Part shown: one piece after another, positions 12,845 through 46,764 of the stretch | Layout of the letters: every line of letters begins with the position of its first letter | Numbering within the stretch: the stretch's first letter is position 1 | Origin: Candidatus Thiothrix sulfatifontis | GTDB taxonomy: Bacteria; Pseudomonadota; Gammaproteobacteria; Thiotrichales; Thiotrichaceae | DNA length: 64,000 bases | Direction of reading: 5' to 3' | Assembly (NCBI GenBank): GCA_022828425.1 | Contig: CP094685.1 | Location: 2,542,001 to 2,606,000, forward strand | Program-made: the position numbers and the translations under genes | Notes under the pieces: generated by a model | What the model was told of the DNA's origin: nothing | What the model saw: the letters and a program-made list of their open reading frames with translations, nothing else | The model's database searches: none

Positions 12845-13009
12845 TTCTCTTTCCCCCTGCGCAAATCGTCTGGTATTAAAAGTTGGCTACTTTAGCATAG
12901 ATGGGCAACGAGACAATCAGGAGGAAACACGGCGGATGCTGACTGTATGCCCCCCTGCTTATCTGATAGCATTGCGACTTTACATAACAACGTTACACGG
13001 ATCTTCACC

Positions 13010-13627
13010 ATGGTCTATTTGCTGATTGCACTCGCTTACCTGCTCGGTTCCATTTCTGCCGCCATCATTACCTGCAAACTGATGGGCTTACCTGACCCGC
13101 GCACGGTGGGTTCCAACAACCCCGGCGCAACCAATGTCTTGCGCCACGGCGGTAAAAAAGCCGCTGCGATTACCTTGCTCGGTGATGGTTTAAAAGGCTT
13201 GATTCCGGTCTTAATCGGCAAAGCCTTGGGCGTGGATGAGACGGGGTTAATCTTGATCGGTATTGCCGCGTTTTTGGGGCATTTATACCCGGTATTCTAC
13301 GGTTTCAAAGGCGGTAAAGGCGTTGCCACCGCTATCGGCGTATTCCTCGGAGTGTATGTCTGGGGCGGCATAGCCTTCGTCGCAACCTGGTTGGTCATGG
13401 CGAAAGGCTTCAAAATTTCCTCACTCGCCGCGCTGATTGCTACCGCACTCTCACCTATTTACTTTTGGGTATTGAGTGACGGTAATGGCTGGCTGACGCT
13501 GGGCGTAACCTTCATAGCGATCATGATTTTCTGGCGGCACGAATCCAATATCCGCAACCTGCTATCAGGCAAGGAAGACAAGATTCAGTCCAAAGAAGGC
13601 GCAGAATCGGTAACAGACGAAGAGTAA
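13010..13627 (+). CDS. plsY: Acyl-phosphate:glycerol-3-phosphate acyltransferase
   Basis: Integral membrane enzyme that makes lysophosphatidate from acyl-phosphate and glycerol-3-phosphate. The 205-residue product shows the PlsY motifs GSNNPGATNVLR and GFKGGKGVATAIGV and five to six hydrophobic helices. The ATG at 13010 fits the family start (MVYLLIALAYLLGSI); a longer frame upstream lacks conservation. The C-terminal tail after HESNIRNLL is charged and a little longer than usual. Confidence 0.95.
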   Translation: MVYLLIALAYLLGSISAAIITCKLMGLPDPRTVGSNNPGATNVLRHGGKKAAAITLLGDGLKGLIPVLIGKALGVDETGLILIGIAAFLGHLYPVFYGFKGGKGVATAIGVFLGVYVWGGIAFVATWLVMAKGFKISSLAALIATALSPIYFWVLSDGNGWLTLGVTFIAIMIFWRHESNIRNLLSGKEDKIQSKEGAESVTDEE

Positions 13628-13630
13628 GCC

Positions 13631-14995
13631 TTACTCCTCACCGTCAACAAGACCGTATTTTTTCAGCTTACGCCACAACGACACGCGGTCAATCCCCAGA
13701 ATCTGCGCCGCCTTGGTGCGGTTGCCATCACAATGTTCCAGCACGTAGCGGATGTATTCCTCCTCGCGCTGCACCAGCGACGGCAATTCCGTCGGGGCTT
13801 CCGGCAAAGCATGAATCGCTTGCGCCGCCAAAGCCGCAGGCAATTCCGCCAGCGTCAATTCATTGCCACGCGCCAACGCCACGCCGCGCTCAATCAGGTT
13901 TTCCAGCTCGCGCACATTGCCGGGGTAATGATACCCCAACAACACCGACATAGCCGCCGGAGCAATATTTTCCACCTCGCGCCCCATGCGCAGCGCGTGT
14001 TTGCGCAAGAAAAAGAACGCCAGCAAGGGAATATCGTCGCGCCGTTCCACCAAGCTCGGCAAATGCAGCCCCACCACGTCCAGCCGGAAATACAAATCCT
14101 GCCGGAAACGCCCTGCCGCCACTTCCGCACGTAAATCGCGGTGGGTTGCGGTAATCAAACGCACATCCACTGGCACGGCGGTTTGCGCCCCCAAGCGTTG
14201 CACTTCGCGCTCTTGCACCACGCGCAGCAATTTCACCTGCATTGCCAGCGACATTTCGCCGATTTCATCCAGAAACAACGTGCCACCGTTGGCGGCTTCG
14301 ATCAAACCCGCCCGTGCCTCGCCCGCGCCGGTATACGCGCCTTTTTCATGCCCGAACAATTCATTTGCCAGCAAATCTTCCTGCAATGCGCCGCAATTCA
14401 CCCCGACGAATGCGCCTTGGCTGCGACGGCTGTGCTGATGCAGGTAACGCGCCAGCAATTCCTTGCCCGTACCGCTTTGCCCATTAATCAGCAAGGTAGT
14501 ATCGGTTGCCGCCACCTGTTGCGCCGTATCGAGCAAGCGCAACATCGCGGGATTTTGCGTCACCAATCCGGCATGGGTATGCAAACCGTTACTCACCTGC
14601 GCCCGCAAGCGGCGGTTTTCGCGCTTGAGCTGCACCAGTTGCAGCGCGTTTGCCACAATGCTACGCACTTCATCCAAACGGAACGGTTTGGCAACGTAGT
14701 GAAACGCGCCCGCTTTCATTGCTTCCACCGCCGAATCCAGCGTGCCATGCGCGGTAATTAACACCACCGCCATGTCAGGGTCGGTTTCCAACGCACGCTT
14801 GAGAATCGTCATGCCATCCACCCGTTCCATGCGCAAATCGGTCAGAATCAGCTCGAACGTTTGGGTTTGCAAGGCTTCCAAACCGCCCGTGCCGCTTTCG
14901 CGGGTGGTCACTTCGTAGCCGTTTTTGCGCAAGGCATAGGCCAGATTGCGTACTGCAATGGGTTCATCGTCGATGATTAGAATGCGTTCTTTCAC
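13631..14995 (-). CDS. NtrC-family sigma54-dependent response regulator
   Basis: A 454-residue activator. The receiver domain (1-120) has D9/D10, phospho-acceptor D53 in ILTDLRM and the conserved Lys in VAKPF. The AAA+ domain has Walker A GQSGTGKE and the sigma54 loop GAYTGA (Y variant of GAFTGA), then LFLDEIGEM. A Fis-type helix-turn-helix ends the protein (NRTKAAQILGIDRVSLWRKL). The GTG start overlaps the kinase stop (GTGA) and has GGAGG upstream; an upstream ATG lacks this. A near-perfect -24/-12 promoter 3.2 kb away (18187) is a plausible target. Confidence 0.93.
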   Translation of the reverse strand: MKERILIIDDEPIAVRNLAYALRKNGYEVTTRESGTGGLEALQTQTFELILTDLRMERVDGMTILKRALETDPDMAVVLITAHGTLDSAVEAMKAGAFHYVAKPFRLDEVRSIVANALQLVQLKRENRRLRAQVSNGLHTHAGLVTQNPAMLRLLDTAQQVAATDTTLLINGQSGTGKELLARYLHQHSRRSQGAFVGVNCGALQEDLLANELFGHEKGAYTGAGEARAGLIEAANGGTLFLDEIGEMSLAMQVKLLRVVQEREVQRLGAQTAVPVDVRLITATHRDLRAEVAAGRFRQDLYFRLDVVGLHLPSLVERRDDIPLLAFFFLRKHALRMGREVENIAPAAMSVLLGYHYPGNVRELENLIERGVALARGNELTLAELPAALAAQAIHALPEAPTELPSLVQREEEYIRYVLEHCDGNRTKAAQILGIDRVSLWRKLKKYGLVDGEE

Positions 14996-16458
14996 GGGTA
15001 ATGTCCTCCACATGGCAAGCGTAGCACCACCCGCGTGCCTTGCCCCGGCTGGCTGGCAATAGCGATGCAACCGTCATGTTCCTGAATAATTTCCTGCACA
15101 ATATACAGCCCCAGCCCCATGCCCTGACCGGGAGCGCGAGTGGTGTAAAACGGCTCAAACACCCGTGGCAATACTGCCGCCGGAATCCCCGCGCCATTGT
15201 CTTCAATACTGATTTCGATCATGGGTTGGCGTTGGCGCACCTGACAACCGAGTTCCCCTACCACCGTGGCATCCGGCGGTAACGGCGTACCCGACAAGCT
15301 GCATCCCTGAGCGCGAATATGCAGCGTCAGGTTCGTGCCGCTTTCCGCCGCATTGCGCAACAGGTTGATGAACACTTGCTGCAAACGTTGCGCATCAGCG
15401 AGCAGGGTTAAATCCAGTGGCACGTGGTTTTCGACTGTCGCTCCGGCTTTGCGCAAATGCCCGCGCAATAACAACAGGGTGCGTTCCAGCAAGTCGGCAA
15501 GGTTGACCGTTTCCAGATGCGGCTCTTGCCTGCGCCCGAAATCTTGCAGCGCATCGACAATGCGGCGGGCGCGTTCGGTTTCGCTGTCGATGGTGTGCGC
15601 CCATTCGCGCAAGGTGTCTGGCTCGGCACTGTCGAGTTCTTCCAGCAACAATTGGCTGGATGAGGAAATATTGGATAACGGATTGTTGAGTTCATGCGCC
15701 ACACCGGAGACCAACACCCCCAACGCGGCGAGTTTTTCGGACTGAATCAGGCGGCGGCGGCGGGCTTCAAGTTCGTCCAATAAACGGTTAAAGGCTTCGC
15801 GCAAACTGACCATTTCGGTGCTGCGAGCGCGGACATCCAGCCGCTCGAAATGCCCTTCCGCAATCGGGGTTAAATCTGCCATCAGACGTTTCATCGGGGT
15901 AATCACGGAACGATCCAGCAACCAGGCAATCAGCACCAGCAGCACGGACAAAATTCCCACCCCCAATACTTGCGCCCATTTCGCATCCGCAATGGCGGTG
16001 TTTAACAAGCTGCGTTCTTGCAGGGTGAGTGATTCCGCCAATTGCGAAGCCAAATGGCCTTGCGCACGGATGCTGCTTTCCAGCGTGCTATCAGCAGGCA
16101 AACGTTGCAGATGGTTGGCTAATAACTGGCGGTAGGTTTGTAAAATCGTCTGCAATTGCGAAATTTGCATCACATTACCCACTTCTGCAAGTGTCTGCGG
16201 GGAAGTCTGCAAGGTTTGCAAGGCGGTCGCCGCAAAGGTATCCGCTGCCTGACCCGCACTCGCATCTTGGTAGAGAAACAGATTTTTTTCCTCGCGACGC
16301 ATGTCCTGTATCGCGGTTTCCAACGTGGTGATGGTGATACCCTGCTCAACTTGACGTTCCAGAAACAGCAAGTCCAGAAACGCCAAGGCTGCTACCCCAA
16401 CCACCAAGACAGCGAGGGAGGAGAACGCGAAAGTAATTTTACGGTGAATACTGATCAT
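14992..16458 (-). CDS. Sensor histidine kinase
   Basis: A 488-residue inner-membrane kinase that should phosphorylate the response regulator it overlaps by four bases. A transmembrane helix (about 8-32) is followed by a 130-residue helical periplasmic sensor, a second helix (162-184), HAMP, and a HisKA domain with H255 in GVAHELNNPL. The ATPase domain has the N box INLLRNAAES, the G1 box EDNGAGIP and the G2 box GMGLGL. The signal is not evident. It is divergent from the beta carbonic anhydrase, with a shared operator-like region immediately upstream of its start. Confidence 0.93.
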   Translation of the reverse strand: MISIHRKITFAFSSLAVLVVGVAALAFLDLLFLERQVEQGITITTLETAIQDMRREEKNLFLYQDASAGQAADTFAATALQTLQTSPQTLAEVGNVMQISQLQTILQTYRQLLANHLQRLPADSTLESSIRAQGHLASQLAESLTLQERSLLNTAIADAKWAQVLGVGILSVLLVLIAWLLDRSVITPMKRLMADLTPIAEGHFERLDVRARSTEMVSLREAFNRLLDELEARRRRLIQSEKLAALGVLVSGVAHELNNPLSNISSSSQLLLEELDSAEPDTLREWAHTIDSETERARRIVDALQDFGRRQEPHLETVNLADLLERTLLLLRGHLRKAGATVENHVPLDLTLLADAQRLQQVFINLLRNAAESGTNLTLHIRAQGCSLSGTPLPPDATVVGELGCQVRQRQPMIEISIEDNGAGIPAAVLPRVFEPFYTTRAPGQGMGLGLYIVQEIIQEHDGCIAIASQPGQGTRVVLRLPCGGHYP

Positions 16459-16463
16459 GGCAC

Positions 16464-16500
16464 TATTTCAATCTGAAACGGGGTGTTGCATTGTGTAACA
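16464..16500. promoter_or_regulatory. Tandem 17-bp dyads before beta carbonic anhydrase / kinase
   Basis: Two copies of the pattern TGTTKCA-N3-TGHAACA: TATTTCA-ATC-TGAAACG at 16464-16480 and TGTTGCA-TTG-TGTAACA at 16484-16500. Their centres are 20 bp apart (two helical turns). They lie about 89 and 69 bp before the predicted start of transcription of the carbonic anhydrase gene, and just before the kinase start codon on the other strand. The same pattern recurs at 17997-18033, 18095-18111 and 20252-20289. Confidence 0.7.
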
Positions 16501-16525
16501 TGAAAGACTTCTGTCACGCAATCCT

Positions 16526-16554
16526 TTGAAAACCGGATGCGTACTCTTTACTAT
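16526..16554 (+). promoter_or_regulatory. Predicted sigma70 promoter of the beta carbonic anhydrase gene
   Basis: TTGAAA at 16526-16531 and TACTAT at 16549-16554 are separated by 17 bases, giving a start near 16561. The dyads upstream then lie at about -69 and -89, the same geometry as at the divergent iota-type gene. Confidence 0.55.
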
Positions 16555-16577
16555 CAAACATTCGTGTTTTAGGGAAA

Positions 16578-17219
16578 ATGATCATGCCAAATAAACAAAG
16601 CAACTTGAGCGGGGCGGAAGCACTCGCCCGTTTACAAGAAGGCAATCAACGTTTTGCCAACAATGTGCGCAGTCTGGATACTTTATTAAGCCACACGCAA
16701 CGCGCCAGCCTGACCGAGGGACAAAACCCGTTTGCGATTATTCTGGGCTGTTCGGATTCGCGGGTTCCGGCGGAATTGGTGTTCGACCAAGGTTTCGGCT
16801 CGCTGTTTGTGATTCGGGTCGCGGGGAATATTGTCGCGCCTTCACAAATCGGCAGCGTGGAATTTGCCGCCACCCAATACAACACGCGGCTGGTGGTGGT
16901 GCTGGGGCATACGCAATGTGGGGCAGTGGCTGCCACTATCGACGAATTGCGCCATAACTTGCAAAGTCCGTCCCGCAACCAACGCTCTATCGTCGAACGC
17001 ATTGCCCCCGCCGTTGCCACCTTAATGGAAACGCCGTTGCGCGATGATCCCGAAGCCCTGATGAAACACGCAGTACGCGCCAATATTCGTGCTGCCACCA
17101 GTCATTTGCGCCACGGTTCGGAAATTCTGGAAAACCTGATTGCGAATGAAGGTTTGCTGGTGGTGAGTGCGGAATATTCGTTAGAGACGGGTAAAGTCGA
17201 GTTTTTTGACGTGCCGTAA
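16578..17219 (+). CDS. Beta-class carbonic anhydrase
   Basis: Interconverts CO2 and bicarbonate. The 213-residue product has the zinc and catalytic set CSDSR (C58, D60, R62) and HTQCGA (H111, C114), plus the typical VIRVAGNI. No signal peptide is seen, so it is cytosolic. Two ATGs lie six bases apart (16578 and 16584); AGGGA is spaced better for the second. It converges with the iota-type gene, 44 bases downstream. Context suggests a role in supplying inorganic carbon along with the SulP transporters. Confidence 0.96.
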   Translation: MIMPNKQSNLSGAEALARLQEGNQRFANNVRSLDTLLSHTQRASLTEGQNPFAIILGCSDSRVPAELVFDQGFGSLFVIRVAGNIVAPSQIGSVEFAATQYNTRLVVVLGHTQCGAVAATIDELRHNLQSPSRNQRSIVERIAPAVATLMETPLRDDPEALMKHAVRANIRAATSHLRHGSEILENLIANEGLLVVSAEYSLETGKVEFFDVP

Positions 17220-17263
17220 CGTGTGGGAAACGTGGTTTTGCATCCCGTTTCCCACCGCTGCTT

Positions 17264-17908
17264 TTAATGTTCGGGGTGGTAAGGCAATGAAGAGTGATGC
17301 AGGAAGATTTTCAGATGCCCGTCCGCTTTGTCACGTTTGTAACCAAAGGTATATTCCACCTTGGTTTCTTTGCCGGTGGCGGCATCGGTGAAGTAATAAT
17401 TGCCCATCGCTTCTGCGGTGTCTTGGTTGATCGCGATCGCATCGTTTTCAAAACGTACTTTTGACCAGGGTTGCAGGGCAAAGCCGTGGTCTTCGGTTTC
17501 TTTGCCTTTGACGAAATACGACAGGGCTTCATCCTTGGTTTCACGAAACTGGTCTTCAGCCGCTTTGGTGGGCTTGAACAATACTGTGCCATCACTAAAC
17601 GTGTACAGTTGGTCGAGGAGTTTGCTGGTTATCGCTTGATAATCGCCTTTTTCCTGATAGGTTTTGCCAATCGTGACAATGCCATCACCCCACGCTTGTT
17701 GTGCGGCTTGCACATCCTGCTCAGTAATCGGGGCAACCACAGGTGCAGGCGTTGCAATGGGTGCTATTGGGGCAAGAGGTGCGGTGGGCGCAACCGGCGC
17801 GACGGGAGCAGTGAGTGGCGTACTGGATTCCGCCAGCGCAACATTACCTACCACAAAACTCATGCCACTCAGTAAGCACATTGCCCATAAACCTTGTTTC
17901 ATCATCAT
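17264..17908 (-). CDS. Putative iota-class carbonic anhydrase, exported
   Basis: A 214-residue protein with a signal peptide (cleavage after VALA), an Ala/Pro-rich linker and a SnoaL/NTF2-like domain. The domain has features remembered from diatom and bacterial iota carbonic anhydrases: AQQAWGDGIVTIG, TVLFKPT, ALSYFV, FALQPWSKVRFEN, MGNYYFT, YTFGYKR and the C-terminal HHSSLP. That class can work without metal. The assignment rests on motif recall, not a search. Export suggests periplasmic CO2/bicarbonate conversion, complementary to the cytosolic beta enzyme beside it. The fallback name is SnoaL-like protein. Confidence 0.8.
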   Translation of the reverse strand: MMMKQGLWAMCLLSGMSFVVGNVALAESSTPLTAPVAPVAPTAPLAPIAPIATPAPVVAPITEQDVQAAQQAWGDGIVTIGKTYQEKGDYQAITSKLLDQLYTFSDGTVLFKPTKAAEDQFRETKDEALSYFVKGKETEDHGFALQPWSKVRFENDAIAINQDTAEAMGNYYFTDAATGKETKVEYTFGYKRDKADGHLKIFLHHSSLPYHPEH

Positions 17909-17943
17909 GCAAACTCTCCTTATCTGGTAAAAATCACGCCGCT

Positions 17944-17972
17944 ATACTATCAATAAAATTAGGGGTATACAG
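17944..17972 (-). promoter_or_regulatory. Predicted sigma70 promoter of the iota-type gene
   Basis: On the minus strand CTGTAT (17967-17972) and TAGTAT (17944-17949) are 17 bases apart, giving a start near 17937. The -35 is weak, as expected for an activated promoter. The tandem dyads upstream then lie at about -68 and -88. Confidence 0.45.
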
Positions 17973-17996
17973 CCTGCCCGAAAGGAAGAGCTATGG

Positions 17997-18033
17997 CGTT
18001 TCAGACTGAAACTGAGTGTTTCACTATGCAACA
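17997..18033. promoter_or_regulatory. Tandem 17-bp dyads before the iota-type gene
   Basis: CGTTTCA-GAC-TGAAACT at 17997-18013 and TGTTTCA-CTA-TGCAACA at 18017-18033, centres 20 bp apart. Arrangement and spacing match 16464-16500. The core TTKCA-N3-TGHAA also fits the T-N11-A pattern of LysR-type regulators. Confidence 0.7.
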
Positions 18034-18094
18034 CCAGCAGCTTTGCAAATAATAACGCTTAAATACAATGACTTATAAAAATCCATCAAAACCC

Positions 18095-18111
18095 CGTTGC
18101 AAACTGTAACA
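18095..18111. promoter_or_regulatory. Single 17-bp dyad upstream of the sigma54 promoter
   Basis: CGTTGCA-AAC-TGTAACA is one more copy of the shared dyad, centred about 110 bp before the predicted sigma54 transcription start. That is a normal distance for an enhancer site bound by an NtrC-type activator. Confidence 0.6.
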
Positions 18112-18186
18112 GCAGGCACGGCGGTATCACTCAGCAGATTTCAGGTTTATCGTTAAATAACAGTTAGTTAAACATCATCAAAAGGC

Positions 18187-18202
18187 TGGCACGCCGCTTG
18201 CT
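18187..18202 (+). promoter_or_regulatory. Sigma54 (-24/-12) promoter of the SulP1 unit
   Basis: TGGCACG-CCGC-TTGCT matches the RpoN consensus TGGCACG-N4-TTGCW in full, with the GG (18188-18189) and GC (18200-18201) separated by the required 10 bases. It would start transcription near 18213, 33 bases before the small upstream gene. An NtrC-family regulator is encoded 3.2 kb away. Confidence 0.85.
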
Positions 18203-18245
18203 ATAGAACTGGAAAATACTATTCTTAACCAAGGAAACCCTTCTC

Positions 18246-18449
18246 ATGAACCATTTATCGGCTGCACTGAAAACCATCCTCAACGGGCTGGCGATGCAAT
18301 ACGAAGGCGAATTGCTGACGACACAAGAGAAAAAAGCCAACCTGCAACGGGTACTGACAGAAATTGAACGCGAAAAACAAGAGGCGCAAGCTACCGCCAA
18401 CAACACAGCCACTTCAACCTTCTCTGATATGGCCTTACACGCCAAGTGA
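18246..18449 (+). CDS. Small helical protein encoded ahead of SulP1
   Basis: A 67-residue, mostly helical protein rich in Glu, Lys and Ala, without a membrane segment and with no family recognised. AAGGAAA precedes the ATG at a good distance. Its stop lies six bases before the SulP1 ATG, so the two are translated from one message made by the sigma54 promoter. It could be a regulatory partner of the transporter; that is inference. Confidence 0.65.
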   Translation: MNHLSAALKTILNGLAMQYEGELLTTQEKKANLQRVLTEIEREKQEAQATANNTATSTFSDMALHAK

Positions 18450-18454
18450 GTATC

Positions 18455-20236
18455 ATGAGCGTTCAAGCACTTCCCTCCTACTGGACATGGCTGCTGCCAT
18501 TCCTCAACTGGTTGCCTAAAATTAATGGGCGTGACCTGCGGGCTGATTTCATTGCCGGTTTGACCGGGGCTATCGTGGTACTGCCGCAAGGGGTGGCGTT
18601 TGCCACCATCGCGGGGATGCCGCCGCAATACGGTTTGTATGCGGGCATGATCCCCGCGATTATTGCCGCGCTGTTTGGTTCCTCGCGCCATCTGGTATCG
18701 GGGCCAACCACGGCGGCTTCGGTGGTGTTGTTTTCGGCATTATCCATCCATGCCATCCCCGGTAGCCCGGATTATGTCACGCTGGCCTTGACCCTGACGT
18801 TCATGGTGGGGGTGTTTGAACTGGTACTAGGGCTGGCACGCATGGGCGCGTTGGTCAATTTCATTTCGCACGCCGTGGTGGTCGGCTTCACTGCTGGCGC
18901 GGCTATTTTGATTGCAGCCAAGCAATTGAAGTATTTTTTCGGGGTGGACATGGATAACGGCGGGAATTTGACCGAACTGTTATTCCGGTTTACGCAACAT
19001 CTGGACGGCATTAACGCCTATGCGGTCTTGATTGCTGTCGTCACCCTGCTCAGTGGCATGGCGACTAAACGCTGGTTGAAACGTGTGCCTTACATGGTGG
19101 TGGCTATTCTGGTGGGTAGCTTGCTCAGTGTTGGCTTGAATGCGTGGTTAGGCACAGATATTACGCATATCGCGACGGTTGGTGCATTGCCGGATTCTTT
19201 CCCGCCTTTATCTGCGCCGGTGTTGACGCTGGAAAATATTAAAATGCTGGCTCCTGCTGCCTTGGCAGTCACGCTGTTTGCCTTGACCGAAGCGGTATCC
19301 ATTGGGCGGGCAATGGCGGCACGCGGCGGCTACAGCATCAACGGCAATCAGGAATTTATTGGGCAAGGTTTATCCAATCTTGCCGGGGCATTTTTCTCCG
19401 GCTACGTTTCGACCGGCTCATTTAACCGCACAGGTGTCAACTACGAATCCGGCGCGAAAACCCCGATGGCGGCAGTATTTGCAGGATTATTGCTGATATT
19501 TGTGGTGGTGCTGGTTGCGCCTTACGCCGCGTATTTACCCAAAGCAGCAATGGCTGGCGTGCTGTTCTTAGTCGCGTGGGGCTTGATCGACTGGCATGAA
19601 ATCCGTGAGATTATCAACTTCTCGAAACGCGAAACGGTGGTATTAGCCGTCACGTTCTTTAGTGCGCTGTTCCTTGATTTGGAATTTGCCATCTTCCTCG
19701 GCGTGATGCTGTCCTTGGTGTTGTATCTGGAAAAAGTTTCCAAACCGCGCATCCTGACCCGCACGCCTGATAAGAATTTGCCCAACCATGCCTTTTCCAC
19801 TGACCCGGATTTACCCCAATGCCAGCAAGTGCGCTTTGTGGGGGTTGAAGGTTCGCTGTTTTTTGGTTCGGTGAATCACATGGAGGAAACGTTCGGCAAA
19901 ATCCGCGTAGAACACCCACAGCAAAAACACCTTGCCGTGATTTGCGAAGGCATCAACTTTGCCGATTTGCAGGGCAGTCACGCGCTGTACAAGGAAGCCA
20001 AACAACGGCAAGCCGATGACGGCAATTTGTACCTGATCAATGTCAAGGAAGGGTTGTGGGATGCGCTGGAAGCCTGCGAATGTTTTGACAAGGAAGGCGC
20101 ACGCAATGTGTTCCAGTCCAAGTCCGCCGCAATCCACGCGATTTACCAAAAGCTGGATAAAAGCCTGTGTGAAGGTTGTACCACTCACTTGTTCAAAGAA
20201 TGTTCTGGTACGGTGGTGACTCACGCCAAGTCATAA
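18455..20236 (+). CDS. SulP-family anion transporter (putative bicarbonate), copy 1
   Basis: A 593-residue inner-membrane transporter. The SLC26/SulP signature is clear: PQGVAFATIAGMPPQYGLYAG followed by LVSGPTTAASVV, then about 12 hydrophobic segments and a cytosolic STAS domain (from about residue 450). The tail has an uncommon cysteine cluster (LCEGCTTHLFKEC) that is shared with the second copy. SulP proteins carry sulfate or, as in cyanobacterial BicA, bicarbonate. Two carbonic anhydrase genes next door make bicarbonate the likelier substrate. An alternative GTG start is at 18446. Confidence 0.9.
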   Translation: MSVQALPSYWTWLLPFLNWLPKINGRDLRADFIAGLTGAIVVLPQGVAFATIAGMPPQYGLYAGMIPAIIAALFGSSRHLVSGPTTAASVVLFSALSIHAIPGSPDYVTLALTLTFMVGVFELVLGLARMGALVNFISHAVVVGFTAGAAILIAAKQLKYFFGVDMDNGGNLTELLFRFTQHLDGINAYAVLIAVVTLLSGMATKRWLKRVPYMVVAILVGSLLSVGLNAWLGTDITHIATVGALPDSFPPLSAPVLTLENIKMLAPAALAVTLFALTEAVSIGRAMAARGGYSINGNQEFIGQGLSNLAGAFFSGYVSTGSFNRTGVNYESGAKTPMAAVFAGLLLIFVVVLVAPYAAYLPKAAMAGVLFLVAWGLIDWHEIREIINFSKRETVVLAVTFFSALFLDLEFAIFLGVMLSLVLYLEKVSKPRILTRTPDKNLPNHAFSTDPDLPQCQQVRFVGVEGSLFFGSVNHMEETFGKIRVEHPQQKHLAVICEGINFADLQGSHALYKEAKQRQADDGNLYLINVKEGLWDALEACECFDKEGARNVFQSKSAAIHAIYQKLDKSLCEGCTTHLFKECSGTVVTHAKS

Positions 20237-20251
20237 GGTTGCCCAGATCAC

Positions 20252-20289
20252 TGTTTCAGTTTGCAACACTCAAGTTGCAGACTGAAACA
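20252..20289. promoter_or_regulatory. Tandem 17-bp dyads before SulP2
   Basis: TGTTTCA-GTT-TGCAACA at 20252-20268 and AGTTGCA-GAC-TGAAACA at 20273-20289, centres 21 bp apart. They lie in the 163-base gap between the two transporter genes. A weak promoter (TTTACC at 20311, AT-rich -10 near 20335) would place them at about -66 and -87. Confidence 0.7.
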
Positions 20290-20399
20290 CGAGGCAGTAT
20301 TTACTGCGACTTTACCCCATAATGATTTCACGCAATTAATTAGCACTCACTAATGCTGTAACATGTTCGGCTTATTTCGGGTATGCACAGAGTGAGCGC

Positions 20400-22145
20400 A
20401 TGAAACAATTTTTCTTCCCCTTTCTCGTCTGGCTGGGCTTAGTCAATCGCGAATCACTGAAAGCCGATTTCTTGGCGGGCTTAACTGGCGCAGTCGTGGT
20501 GTTGCCACAAGGGGTCGCGTTTGCGGCGATTGCAGGCTTGCCGCCGGAATACGGTTTGTACACGGCAATGGTCACACCGATTATTGCGGGCTTGTTTGGC
20601 TCATCCTTGCATCTGGTATCCGGCCCCACCACTGCGATTTCCTTGGTAGTATTTTCCACCATCAGCCGTTATGCCGAACCGGGGTCGGAACAATTTATTC
20701 AAATGGTGTTGACGCTGACCTTCCTCGCAGGGGTTTACCAGTTGGTGTTCGGCTTGATGCGCTTGGGTATGTTGGTGAACTTTGTATCGCATACCGTGGT
20801 GATCGGTTTTACGGCTGGGGCAGCGATTCTGATTGCCACCAGCCAAATCAAATACGTGACCGGCATCCCCATTCCCAAAGGCGAATCGTTCCTGCATACG
20901 TGGGCAGATGTGGGCATTGGTATTGGTGAAACCAACCTGTACATTCTGGCAATTGCCGGTTTCACCATGCTGTCAGCCCTGTTGCTGAAACGTTACTTAC
21001 CCAAAATGCCGCACCTGTTATTTGGCATGATTATGGGCAGTCTTGCCAGTATCGCCATCGGTGGTGCGGCACACGGTCTTACTTACGTGGGTGAAATCAA
21101 AGGGCAATTGCCGCCATTCTCGATGCCCGACTTTTCCTTAGCCTCGTTGAAACAACTCGCATCCGGCGCATTCGCTGTCGCCTTGCTGGGGCTGATTGAG
21201 GCGGTGTCGATTGCCCGCTCGATTGCTACCAAATCCCAGCAACGTCTGGATGGCAATCAGGAATTCGTTGGGCAAGGTTTGTCGAATATTGCAGGCAGTT
21301 TCTTATCCAGCTACGCCGGTTCTGGCTCGTTTACCCGTTCGGGGATTAACTATTCTGCCGGGGCAAGAACGCCGTTGTCGGCGGTATTTGCAGCGATTTT
21401 ACTGGCAATCATCGTGTTGCTGGTTGCACCGTTAGCGGCGTATTTGCCGGTCGCAGCAATGGGCGGCATCATTATGTTGGTCGCCTACAACCTGATCGAC
21501 TTTCACCATATCAAGCACATTTTGCACAGCAGCAGGACTGAAACTTCGATCCTTGCCACCACGTTTTTCGCCACACTGTTCATGGAGCTGGAATTCGCCA
21601 TTTACATGGGCGTGTTGCTGTCGTTGATCATTTTCCTGATGCGCACGTCGATGCCAAACATTGTGGATTTAGCCCCGAACCCCGCCGAACCGCGCCACAA
21701 GTTTGCTGAAGTCAGCGAATACGGGCTGAAAGAATGCCCGCAATTGAAATTGGTGCGGGTGGATATGTCGATCTATTTTGGTTCACTCGACAAAGTACAG
21801 CGCGAACTGGCTTGCATTGCCGAACGCCAACACATTAAGCATGTCCTGATCGTGGGGGAAAGCATCAACTTCATCGACCTTGCCGGGGCAGAAATGCTGA
21901 TTCAGGAAGCCAAACGCTTGAAATCCATCGGTGGCGGTTTGTATTTGCAAGGCGCGAAAAGCAAAGTCTACGATTTTATGGATAGAATTGATTTCGTCGA
22001 AGATTTCGGCGCAGGCAATGTGTTTTCCAGCAAAGAAGCTGCCTTGCAATCGCTGACCAAGCGGCTGGATTACAGCATTTGTGCGACTTGCGACAAGCGT
22101 ATTTTCCGCGAATGTGCGAAGTTACCGGGCGCAAAAACGGTTTAA
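20400..22145 (+). CDS. SulP-family anion transporter (putative bicarbonate), copy 2
   Basis: A 581-residue paralogue of the preceding transporter, with the same signature (PQGVAFAAIAGLPPEYGLYTA, LVSGPTTAISLV), about 12 membrane segments and a C-terminal STAS domain. The tail again has clustered cysteines (ICATCDKRIFREC). It has its own upstream dyads, so it is likely controlled separately from copy 1. Its stop overlaps the recD stop by three bases on the opposite strand. Sulfate transport cannot be excluded from sequence alone. Confidence 0.9.
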   Translation: MKQFFFPFLVWLGLVNRESLKADFLAGLTGAVVVLPQGVAFAAIAGLPPEYGLYTAMVTPIIAGLFGSSLHLVSGPTTAISLVVFSTISRYAEPGSEQFIQMVLTLTFLAGVYQLVFGLMRLGMLVNFVSHTVVIGFTAGAAILIATSQIKYVTGIPIPKGESFLHTWADVGIGIGETNLYILAIAGFTMLSALLLKRYLPKMPHLLFGMIMGSLASIAIGGAAHGLTYVGEIKGQLPPFSMPDFSLASLKQLASGAFAVALLGLIEAVSIARSIATKSQQRLDGNQEFVGQGLSNIAGSFLSSYAGSGSFTRSGINYSAGARTPLSAVFAAILLAIIVLLVAPLAAYLPVAAMGGIIMLVAYNLIDFHHIKHILHSSRTETSILATTFFATLFMELEFAIYMGVLLSLIIFLMRTSMPNIVDLAPNPAEPRHKFAEVSEYGLKECPQLKLVRVDMSIYFGSLDKVQRELACIAERQHIKHVLIVGESINFIDLAGAEMLIQEAKRLKSIGGGLYLQGAKSKVYDFMDRIDFVEDFGAGNVFSSKEAALQSLTKRLDYSICATCDKRIFRECAKLPGAKTV

Positions 22146-23689
22146 GCCTGCAAGCGTTCCTGCAACTGTGACGACGGTGGCGTTACCGTGCGTAACGCCT
22201 TACCCAACATGGCACGGCTGGCGAGAATGTGAATCCCCTGCTTCGCCCGCGTCACTGCCGTATACAGCAATTCGCGCCCCAGCAACGGCAAATCATCCAT
22301 TTCCGGCAAGACCAACAACACCCGCGTAAATTCCGAGCCTTGGCTCTTGTGAATCGTCATTGCCCACGCGGTTTCATGCGCAGGCAAACGGATCGGCGCA
22401 ATTGCGCGGTAATTCCCCGCCTCACCCGTCGGAAACCACACCCGCAAATCACCGTTGGCATCCGGCAGGGCAATCCCAATATCGCCGTTGAACAAATTCT
22501 GACGGTAATCGTTTTGCGTCACCATGACCGGCCGTCCCACGTACCAGGGGCGTTGCGCCCCCGTGTGAACAGGCAATACTCGCTGCATCACGCCATCGAC
22601 CCAGCCGTTGAGGGTTTCCACCCCCTGCCGCCCTTGCCGCAACGGAGTCAGGATGCGCAATGCATTAAACGTATTGAAAATTGCCTCGACCGCGCCGGTT
22701 TTGACCGCTGCGATATAATCCTGCCAACCATGCCGCAACCATGCCGCATCCAAGCCTGCTTGTGATTCATCCAAAGTCACGTCGGCAAAATCGGCGGAAG
22801 CCAACACCGCCAACAACCGCGCTTCATCCGCTTCACGAATCGCCTGCGCCAATTGCCCCACGCCATCCGCCGCGCTGAAGCGGTAGCTGGTTTGCAACAG
22901 CGTCATCTGCGCGGCTAACGCCCCCCCACTGCACAAATCGCGGAAAATCGACCCGGTTTCCACCGACGCCAATTGATCTTTATCGCCCAGCAAAATCAGC
23001 TTGGCTGACGGCGGCACGGCTTCAAACAAATGCGTCATTAAGGAAATGTCGATCATCGACGCTTCATCCACAATCACCGCATCGGCTGCCAAAGGGTTAT
23101 GCACCCCGTGCCGAAATCCGACGCGATTGGGAATGAACCCCAGCAAACGGTGCAAAGTGCTGGATTGCTCCGGCATTGCGCACGTAATCTGTTCGCGCTG
23201 ACGGGTGTGACGAATCGACTCCTGCATTCGCATCGCTGCCTTGCCCGTCGGTGCTGCCAGCAAAATCCGCGTCGGTGACACGCCACTGGCGATAAAATCC
23301 GCCAGAATGCGCGTCACGGTGGTGGTTTTGCCGGTTCCCGGCCCCCCGGAAATAATCAGCAGCGAATTATCACGCCTCCGGGTTTGAATGCATTCCGTCA
23401 GCCGCTGTTCATAGTGCCAATAGCGATACAGCCAGACATGGGTATCGCTTAAAATCAAGGGTTTGTAATCCCCCTCCCGCCCGACGACAGGAGAGTTCTG
23501 CAAGGTTCCCCAATCCACATCCGGCAACGCCGCACGCGGCACAGCAATCACGCCCTCACGGGTATGCGCACTCACTTGCCGCACCAGCGTTGCCAGGTCT
23601 CGCGTGCTGGAAGAACCACCATCCAGCCGTTTCAGCAAACTGGCAAGCTGTTCATCCAGCGGATGGGAAACAGAGGGCGCTAACAGCAT
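22142..23689 (-). CDS. recD: Exodeoxyribonuclease V alpha subunit (RecD)
   Basis: SF1B helicase subunit of RecBCD, which processes double-strand ends. The 515-residue product has Walker A GGPGTGKTTT, LLAAPTGKAAMRMQE, the DEAS Walker B in IVDEASMID, and motif VI TAVTRAKQGIHI. It is about 90 residues shorter than the E. coli protein, mainly at the N-terminus. recB and recC are not beside it here. The start shares one base with the galU stop (TAATG). Confidence 0.92.
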   Translation of the reverse strand: MLLAPSVSHPLDEQLASLLKRLDGGSSSTRDLATLVRQVSAHTREGVIAVPRAALPDVDWGTLQNSPVVGREGDYKPLILSDTHVWLYRYWHYEQRLTECIQTRRRDNSLLIISGGPGTGKTTTVTRILADFIASGVSPTRILLAAPTGKAAMRMQESIRHTRQREQITCAMPEQSSTLHRLLGFIPNRVGFRHGVHNPLAADAVIVDEASMIDISLMTHLFEAVPPSAKLILLGDKDQLASVETGSIFRDLCSGGALAAQMTLLQTSYRFSAADGVGQLAQAIREADEARLLAVLASADFADVTLDESQAGLDAAWLRHGWQDYIAAVKTGAVEAIFNTFNALRILTPLRQGRQGVETLNGWVDGVMQRVLPVHTGAQRPWYVGRPVMVTQNDYRQNLFNGDIGIALPDANGDLRVWFPTGEAGNYRAIAPIRLPAHETAWAMTIHKSQGSEFTRVLLVLPEMDDLPLLGRELLYTAVTRAKQGIHILASRAMLGKALRTVTPPSSQLQERLQA

Positions 23690-45468: not shown

Positions 45469-46764
45469 ATGACCCTCGCAACGAATCTGGATGAAGTGTA
45501 CCGCGCCTGCGACCCCGACAAGCCTCTCAGTGCGTTAGATGAGCGTTATGTAGACTTAGCTGAAGTACGTGGTACGAAAGTCATTGCTACCACCATCGCA
45601 CGACGCATCGAACGCTGCAATGATGGTCAGTTTTACCAACAATTGTTCACTGGGCATCGTGGTAGTGGCAAGTCCACTGAATTGTTGCGATTGAAAAAGG
45701 AATTGCAAAGCCGCAACTTCTTTGCCATTTACATTGATGTTGAGGAGCTACTTGACCTTGCCGACCTCGACTATTTGGATGTGTTATTAAGCATTGCCAA
45801 GCAAACAGAAGAAGAGTTACGTAAAAGTGACATCGCATTAAACGATGAATTATTGGAAAATCTCGGCAAATGGTTTGAAGAAAAAATCATCGAAAACGGT
45901 CAATCAAACGAACTGTCTGCTGGACTCAAAACACAGATAGAAGCTGAAGCAAAAATTCCATTTTTTGCCAAATTAATGGCAAGCCTTACCGCAGAAATTA
46001 AAACAGCCAGTAGTCGCCGTATTACCACACGCCAAAAGTTGGAACGTGAACAAGCTGTCTTTATTGAGCGTCTTAACTTTTTGTTGTTGGATGCCCGCTC
46101 TAAAGTACAAAAACGTGGGCATAAAGATATTGTCCTGATCGTTGATGGCTTGGAAAAAATACACTATCGCATTCTTGATGACAAGCAATCCAGCCATGCA
46201 CATTTATTCGTTGTTCATGCCGAACAATTGAAAGCACCACGTTGCCACATTGTTTACACCATGCCGATTTCCTTGGCTTTTAACGCTAATCTTGGCAATG
46301 ACTTTGATGATGTCCAATTATTGCCAATGGTCAAAATGAATGATCAAGGCATCGCCTGTTTAGGTGAAGTGGTAGCACGGCGCGTCGATGTTGCCGCCAC
46401 GTTTGAACAAACCAATGTCATTAATGAATTGGCGCAACTCAGTGGTGGCGTTATGCGTGATTTGATGCGTTTGATACGACTCTCAACGGATACCGACGAA
46501 GCCAAAATTGGTGCGTCTGAAATCGAGTATGCCAAGAAAGCCCTTATCCGTGAGTATGATCGCCTATTACGTGATGACGAATTTGAGAAACTGGCGTGGG
46601 TACGTGCCAATCGTCGCGTCACGGGTGATGAAAGCTATGCTCGCTTATTAAATCTACGACTGATTCTCGAATACCAAAATGGGGGACGTTGGGCCGATGT
46701 ACACCCGGCAGTGATGCAAATTCCGTGGGTAGAAAAACGGTTGCAAAATGAAACTAGCGAGTGA
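45469..46764 (+). CDS. AAA/STAND-like ATPase, first gene of an uncharacterised pair
   Basis: A 431-residue P-loop ATPase. Walker A is GHRGSGKST (62-70), Walker B IVLIVDGLEKI (about 211), followed by a sensor-like YTMPISLAF and a helical region with LAQLSGGVMRDLMRLIRL as in Orc/STAND-type ATPases, then a likely winged helix near the C-terminus. The start at 45469 follows AGGAAGAG; an earlier in-frame ATG has no such site. It overlaps the TPR gene by 17 bases, so they form a unit. No family with a known role was recognised; location in a restriction and toxin-antitoxin region suggests defence. Confidence 0.8.
   Translation: MTLATNLDEVYRACDPDKPLSALDERYVDLAEVRGTKVIATTIARRIERCNDGQFYQQLFTGHRGSGKSTELLRLKKELQSRNFFAIYIDVEELLDLADLDYLDVLLSIAKQTEEELRKSDIALNDELLENLGKWFEEKIIENGQSNELSAGLKTQIEAEAKIPFFAKLMASLTAEIKTASSRRITTRQKLEREQAVFIERLNFLLLDARSKVQKRGHKDIVLIVDGLEKIHYRILDDKQSSHAHLFVVHAEQLKAPRCHIVYTMPISLAFNANLGNDFDDVQLLPMVKMNDQGIACLGEVVARRVDVAATFEQTNVINELAQLSGGVMRDLMRLIRLSTDTDEAKIGASEIEYAKKALIREYDRLLRDDEFEKLAWVRANRRVTGDESYARLLNLRLILEYQNGGRWADVHPAVMQIPWVEKRLQNETSE

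Follow-up and report, generated by a model that had tools for sequence, protein, structure and literature searches.

Tandem dyads at a carbonic anhydrase and SulP transporter locus of Candidatus Thiothrix sulfatifontis are probable enhancers of an adjacent sigma-54 two-component system

To our knowledge, the uptake of inorganic carbon by bacteria is mostly controlled by LysR-type regulators. CbbR, CcmR and CmpR control inorganic-carbon genes, as the system described here probably does, but belong to another protein family, act at sigma-70 promoters and sense metabolites rather than relying on a membrane kinase. Our subject is a 64,000-nucleotide stretch of the Candidatus Thiothrix sulfatifontis genome (contig CP094685.1, positions 2,542,001 to 2,606,000; hereafter the window), in which seven copies of a 17-base-pair (bp) dyad accompany genes for an NtrC-type response regulator, a histidine kinase, two carbonic anhydrase-like proteins and two SulP transporters. 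A comparable arrangement is known from Desulfovibrio vulgaris, where DVU3303-DVU3305 encode a REC-Lon protein, a kinase and a sigma-54 response regulator that act on the UspA-type and membrane genes DVU3302-DVU3298 (Rajeev 2011, PMC3333781; Kazakov 2015, PMC4641369), with orthologues in Thermodesulfovibrio, Thioalkalivibrio and Dechloromonas (Rajeev 2011, PMC3333781). By description, both systems pair a kinase with a sigma-54 regulator beside the operon they control or would control. The D. vulgaris systems DVU0110, DVUA0057, DVU0539 and DVU0946 are also two-component sigma-54 regulators of anion-permease (TSUP/PSE) operons, and differ by description in their targets, which concern lactate and biofilm (Kazakov 2015, PMC4641369). 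The motif groups reported for sigma-54 regulons with TSUP and PSE permeases have TGT and ACA half sites separated by 9, 11 or 12 bp (PMC4641369); the window dyad reads TGT-N11-ACA. Among the literature titles and abstract beginnings listed, with subscription papers mostly outside coverage, no sigma-54/NtrC regulator of SulP or carbonic anhydrase genes was found.

We consider it likely that the dyads are enhancers of the adjacent sigma-54 regulator, itself phosphorylated by the adjacent kinase, and that this regulator activates a 67-amino-acid open reading frame and the first SulP gene (SulP1), probably in the service of inorganic-carbon uptake. The dyads (Table 1) had been proposed in a first-pass annotation, and all seven lie where it placed them, with tandem-pair centres 20, 20 and 21 bp apart as it had reported. 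The pattern that it gave, TGTTKCA-N3-TGHAACA, is exact only in dyads 2, 4 and 6, with one mismatch in dyads 5 and 7 and two in dyads 1 and 3. A symmetric weight matrix trained on the seven window dyads gave them leave-one-out scores of 17.4-24.2 bits, and at 20 bits or more it found exactly these seven in the window, as opposed to a mean of 0.02 sites in 60 dinucleotide shuffles (largest 1). One further window site, the eighth, scores 16.2 bits where an open reading frame ends (46739-46755) and is probably due to chance.

Across the 3.69-Mb genome the core GTTKCA-N3-TGMAAC has eight exact places, four of them in the locus; allowing one mismatch raises the forward count to 69, compared with 29 for a reversed control pattern. 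The 20-bp tandem pair (at most three mismatches) occurs at two places, both in the locus, and its reversed control at one. A looser pattern, RTTKCANNNTGHAAY, has 27 places, seven in the locus and 20 outside, and 12 of the 14 outside places inspected fall in open reading frames. The abundance of dyads throughout the genome that the first-pass annotation had named as evidence against a regulon was not seen, and tandem pairs are confined to the locus. One RTTKCANNNTGHAAY match, at 724112, was rejected as a regulatory site, being a convergent 21-bp palindrome that resembles a terminator hairpin. An intergenic dyad of 18.2 bits at 812408 (L067, G000:C1:812408-812422) has no sigma-54 element and is a possible further target.

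The middle cluster (dyads 3 to 5) is accompanied by a sigma-54 promoter element, TGGCACGCCGCTTGCT, which was overlooked in the first-pass annotation and reads into the small open reading frame and SulP1. It is the only sigma-54 consensus match in the window with at most one mismatch; as 0.77 are expected, a single match in 64 kb is unremarkable alone, and it is its placement and conservation that are remarkable. The cluster belongs to this promoter rather than to the iota-type carbonic anhydrase-like gene nearby, since in two relatives (G062, G052) both cluster and promoter are retained although the iota-type gene is absent from that place. A sigma-70 scan of 16300-20500 gave eight sites, compared with 3.7 (standard deviation 1.5) in shuffles. 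Among them was a beta carbonic anhydrase site scoring 9/12 (TTGAAA-17-TACTAT, 16526-16554), while no iota-type or SulP2 promoter was listed. The proposed equal sigma-70 geometry at three promoters therefore fails, with only one of the three in the scan and, as the conserved partner of the middle cluster, a sigma-54 promoter that points away from the iota-type gene.

Conservation was followed in 16 genomes of the genus, with cut-offs (14 bits for a dyad, 15 of 17 for a sigma-54 element) that were set after a first look at the loci and applied equally to shuffles and controls. The kinase is present in 12 of the 16 and the regulator orthologue in 11 (751-773 bits; next best 438), the same 11 that carry SulP1 at 80% identity or more; in the twelfth kinase genome, G052, the contig ends inside the kinase gene and SulP1 is absent at that identity. 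A dyad followed by a sigma-54 element (at least 15, on a scale with a maximum of 17) occurs in all 12 kinase-bearing genomes, ahead of the small open reading frame and SulP1, except that these two are not downstream in G052. The genus has 20 tandem pairs with no or one mismatch, every one of them at a kinase or SulP locus; they are spread over 11 of the 12 kinase-bearing genomes, the other (G050) having a lower-scoring 19-bp pair instead, and none occurs in the four kinase-less genomes. Degenerate remains of both dyads, the better at 11.4 bits, stand at the aligned place in G053, which has the beta carbonic anhydrase gene and neither kinase nor regulator.

Kinase and SulP1 are direct neighbours in G048, G057, G058 and G059, in the order kinase, dyad pair, third dyad, sigma-54 element, small open reading frame, SulP1. 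The pair centres lie 13-18 and 33-38 bp upstream of the kinase ATG, the third dyad 77-79 bp further on and the sigma-54 element about 85 bp from the centre of the third dyad. In the window clade the carbonic anhydrase genes intervene between kinase and SulP1, with a pair on either side. Because these four genomes keep the pair beside the kinase with no divergent carbonic anhydrase, the pair next to the kinase is to be counted primarily as a kinase-proximal site. In G051 an insertion of about 1.6 kb (L046:9571-11149) interrupts the kinase gene, and the middle cluster of this genome has a single dyad left, with no tandem pair.

The arrangement extends beyond the genus. In a class sample of 369 genomes in which the kinase family was sought, 14 genomes outside the genus match the kinase at 333 bits or more (13 at full length, G187 in two pieces), and the next tier, at 187 bits, consists of matches to the kinase core. 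Within 600 bp upstream of the kinase start, dyads of at least 14 bits were found at 11 of these 14 loci (0.09 expected from shuffles) and two dyads at nine; dyad and sigma-54 element occur in the expected order at nine (about 0 expected). For named genomes, 32 of 80 loci among the matches listed were scored, in which the match starts within the first eight residues and is not cut short; L129 and L142, duplicates of the class set, and 46 others were set aside. Fourteen of these 32 listed matches have a dyad (0.10 expected), eight have two, and eight have dyad and sigma-54 element in order (about 0 expected). Neither a dyad nor a dyad with promoter was found at 36 control kinases (0/36). At 23 loci that had no part in training the matrix, 44 dyads give the consensus TGTTGCA-N3-TGCAACA with an A/T-rich middle. 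Helical phasing of the distance between dyad and promoter, which by eye clustered at about 75, 86 and 98 bp, was rejected (P 0.30 for all 20 values, 0.18 without L108).

Which protein binds these sites is suggested by the regulator itself. It combines a receiver and a sigma-54 AAA+ domain containing GAYTGA with a Fis-type helix-turn-helix (helix LGIDRVSLWRKLKKYG), as seen from Pfam and the sequence; the loop reads GAFTGA or GAYTGA in 12 of 13 aligned regulators of relatives and EAFTGA in L115, and rpoN is present in the genome (487 bits; cut-off 277). The helix signature LGIDRVSLWR occurs in 38 of the 47 loci examined, the window included, and dyads were found at 27 of these 38 as opposed to one of the nine others, at seven of which a search for the helix pattern within 3.7 kb had no match. 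Taken together, this association of dyads with the helix signature and the co-occurrence within the genus make the response regulator the probable dyad-binding protein. Of the two candidates put forward earlier, the NtrC-type regulator is thus favored by co-occurrence and by dyads that follow kinase and regulator, and the LysR-type one has the T-N11-A fit alone. Most likely, then, the dyads serve the NtrC-type regulator as enhancers and are not LysR sites. In favor of a CbbR/CcmR-like LysR protein, acting on three sigma-70 promoters from dyads at about -68/-88, it could be said that the palindromes meet T-N11-A, as any such palindrome does, and that the sigma-70-like site upstream of the beta carbonic anhydrase gene lies at the right distance; the tracking of kinase, regulator and recognition helix by the dyads, the sigma-54 promoter of the middle cluster and the two proposed sigma-70 promoters missing from the scan make this alternative very improbable. 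The window proteins scanned matched no LysR model, a genome-wide search for LysR proteins not having been made.

Several observations weigh against the NtrC-type reading. No dyad of 14 bits or more lies within 600 bp upstream of the kinase at L106, L115 and L116 (the last with just about 200 bases upstream), and 18 of the 32 named loci, among the matches listed, have none of 14 bits. Of the 38 signature loci, 11 have no dyad, which shows that the position or sequence of the sites differs in some lineages, or that sites lie elsewhere. Sigma-54 elements were sought at the beta carbonic anhydrase and SulP2 pairs and none was seen; unlinked SulP2 orthologues have no dyads (0/6), four of them in kinase-bearing genomes; and in G054, which has no kinase, one isolated site of 15.3 bits lies 279 bp before the beta carbonic anhydrase gene. 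Moreover, other permease genes occupy some related loci, of the CitMHS family at L104, by likeness at L105 and L107, and at the named locus L118, and of the TauE/SafE family at the named loci L125 and L130, the latter also with a Usp protein.

The pairs without a sigma-54 element raise the question of whether only the middle cluster activates, the beta carbonic anhydrase and SulP2 pairs being feedback or repressor sites, or leftovers of a promoter-region duplication, with no activating role. In addition to those missing elements, the position of the kinase-proximal pair, only 5 bp from the kinase ATG, and the duplicated promoter region of G048 speak for this possibility; that the SulP2 pair is kept nearly letter for letter in all five linked copies speaks against it, though the genomes concerned are close relatives. 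We regard it as possible, if not the account we prefer. In the stretch 16459-16480, where dyad 1 comes to within 5 bp of the ATG, no Shine-Dalgarno sequence is apparent. In G048 the entire enhancer and sigma-54 promoter region is present twice, and the additional copy, accompanied by a small open reading frame (L042:372-2731), lies before another SulP gene (29% to SulP1). A pair is present in all seven genomes in which the beta carbonic anhydrase gene diverges from the kinase and in none of the three (G050, G057, G058) in which it lies directly 3' of SulP1, and none was found upstream of it in three kinase-less genomes that have the gene. Overall, the sites are sound, and the evidence supports the idea of one regulon that joins carbonic anhydrases and SulP transporters, with a different promoter type at the middle cluster and a named regulator.

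In the reading that we favor, the membrane kinase most likely answers an extracellular signal through its all-helical region and phosphorylates the adjacent regulator, which from dyads 3, 4 and 5 would activate sigma-54 RNA polymerase at TGGCACGCCGCTTGCT and so the small open reading frame and SulP1. At the kinase-proximal pair the regulator would control its own operon and, in the window clade, the divergent beta carbonic anhydrase gene; lying so close to the start of the kinase gene, this pair suggests that the operon is subject to feedback. The third pair would bring SulP2 into the regulon. The sites, the promoter, their conservation and their co-occurrence are seen in the sequences themselves; binding and phosphorylation, and the direction of control at the beta carbonic anhydrase and SulP2 pairs, we infer. 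Family alignments show two invariant residues in the kinase sensor region, E57 and Y109, and four nearly invariant ones, R54, R55, N59 and R131, and our guess is that these charged residues point to an anion ligand. A model of this region resembles four-helix ligand-binding domains (PcaY_PP, McpS, NarQ, QseE; best Foldseek E 0.013, Z up to 13.9), but only to the degree that any helical bundle would. Sequence searches of solved structures with this region gave weak matches (best E 0.0018, to a designed protein), and the results of a whole-kinase fold search were filled by kinase cores.

The nature of the ion was approached through gene neighborhoods. A SulP gene follows on the sigma-54 side at eight of the 14 class loci (L108-L114, L117; Pfam was run on L113). 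In L111 and L117 the SulP locus has a RuBisCO large-subunit gene in its vicinity, joined in L117 by the small subunit and csoS2. Likewise, the SulP-CS protein of Thiomicrospira pelophila is encoded near carboxysomes and transports dissolved inorganic carbon, and with it Escherichia coli lacking carbonic anhydrase grew at low CO2; its likeness to L117, a SulP family gene near carboxysome genes in both, is one of gene context (PMC12628692). The words regulator, two-component, NtrC, LysR and histidine kinase do not occur in that paper. The carbonic anhydrases, together with the neighbors of relatives (RuBisCO, carboxysome, DabA), lead us to infer bicarbonate as the probable ion of SulP1 and SulP2.

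A rival view keeps regulator and sites as above and assigns the regulon to another anion or to general stress (sulfate, sulfite, carboxylate, pH), with the carbonic anhydrases serving pH balance, not carbon fixation. It gains from the TauE/SafE, Usp and CitMHS genes of relatives, from the general-stress role of the closest-looking Desulfovibrio system, which is raised at high pH and heat (PMC3333781), and from the transporters, both of which pass the "sulfate permease" cut-off (Table 1) and fall far under that of the NCBIfam BicA model (184 and 198 bits for SulP1 and SulP2; cut-off 880). The two carbonic anhydrase genes of the locus, the beta carbonic anhydrase gene directly 3' of SulP1 in three genomes, the RuBisCO and csoS2 genes and the DabA gene adjoining a kinase paralogue in G049 oppose it, and we hold it to be unlikely.

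Two relatives, G049 and G060, have a kinase paralogue (72-73%) with no adjacent regulator beside [NiFe] hydrogenase operon genes, the large subunit in G049 only. A dyad pair lies between divergent kinase and operon at both loci (L041:5513-9884; L043:6791-8916), with a sigma-54 element in L041 (G049) only, and an extension of the regulon to hydrogen metabolism through this paralogue is possible. The DabA gene, for a probable inorganic-carbon transporter subunit, stands on the other side of the G049 paralogue. At the SulP locus of G049 (L051:4881-6315) the regulator is present and no kinase gene stands between it and the dyads, the only kinase copy of the genome being at the hydrogenase locus; as the regulator has no kinase beside it there, the two loci may share one pathway.

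Table 1. Coordinates of the dyads, the sigma-54 promoter and the genes of the locus (window positions)
Feature	Position	Strand	Evidence or remark
Dyad 1, kinase-proximal	16464..16480		centre 13 bp from kinase ATG
Dyad 2, kinase-proximal	16484..16500		centre 33 bp from kinase ATG
Dyad 3, predicted enhancer of sigma-54 promoter	17997..18013		matrix and conservation
Dyad 4, predicted enhancer of sigma-54 promoter	18017..18033		matrix and conservation
Dyad 5, predicted promoter-proximal enhancer site	18095..18111		matrix and conservation
Dyad 6, upstream of SulP2	20252..20268		matrix
Dyad 7, upstream of SulP2	20273..20289		matrix
Sigma-54 promoter, -24/-12, TGGCACGCCGCTTGCT	18187..18202	+	perfect consensus match; conserved in relatives
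NtrC-type response regulator	13631..14995	-	Pfam Response_reg 1.1e-27, Sigma54_activat 2.4e-68, HTH_8 2.2e-14
Membrane histidine kinase, all-helical sensor region	14992..16458	-	Pfam HisKA, HATPase_c; family alignments; sensor-region model
Beta carbonic anhydrase	16578..17219	+	Pfam Pro_CA 126.5 bits, E 1.4e-36, cut-off 25.7
Iota-type carbonic-anhydrase-like protein	17264..17908	-	NCBIfam metal-independent carbonic anhydrase 135 bits, E 2.2e-39, cut-off 350
67-amino-acid open reading frame	18246..18449	+	short form of family with Usp-like C-terminal part
SulP1 transporter (Sulfate_transp and STAS)	18446..20236	+	Pfam; TIGR00815 399 bits, cut-off 380
SulP2 transporter (Sulfate_transp and STAS)	20400..22145	+	Pfam; TIGR00815 389 bits, cut-off 380

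To the right of dyad 1 the genes follow in the order beta carbonic anhydrase, iota-type gene (divergent), small open reading frame, SulP1 and SulP2. The iota-type product appears related to metal-independent (iota-type) carbonic anhydrase, at a score under the cut-off of the model. The 67-amino-acid product (18246-18449), for which Pfam and NCBIfam gave no matches, has a helical N-terminal stretch in common with proteins of 160-200 residues in relatives (L049:2661-3257; L117:5698-6288); the C-terminal part of these is Usp-like in appearance, and those tested have no Pfam match. Rfam gave no families in 13000-23000, and no plasmid match for the kinase was found.

Compared with DVU3303-DVU3305, the window system has no REC-Lon gene among the window neighbors scanned (Pfam, NCBIfam), its targets would be SulP and carbonic anhydrase genes, and its small protein is without the Usp-like part. 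Among related loci, L120 and L122 carry a REC-Lon gene beside the kinase, and L130 carries one about 3.6 kb from it. The window system is therefore probably, by this analogy, a branch of the DVU3303-DVU3305 family that is without the REC-Lon and Usp parts and took over SulP and carbonic anhydrase genes.

More tentatively, and as a conjecture to which we would not yet commit, a kinase reading an outside anion (bicarbonate or a proxy) and its NtrC-type regulator may constitute a sigma-54 carbon-concentrating regulon in gammaproteobacteria of the sulfur-oxidizing type, joining SulP, carbonic anhydrases and, through the kinase copy of G049 and G060, the [NiFe] hydrogenase operon under one dyad, and recruited from an older permease/Usp stress system. 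If true, the system described here would represent a non-LysR route of control for CO2 concentration. Looking forward, dyad and helix signature together allow targets to be assigned to this regulator family across many uncultured genomes. How autotrophs of this kind sense their inorganic-carbon supply would become directly testable through a two-component sigma-54 system that is linked to SulP transporters and carbonic anhydrases and, in relatives, lies near RuBisCO or carboxysome genes.

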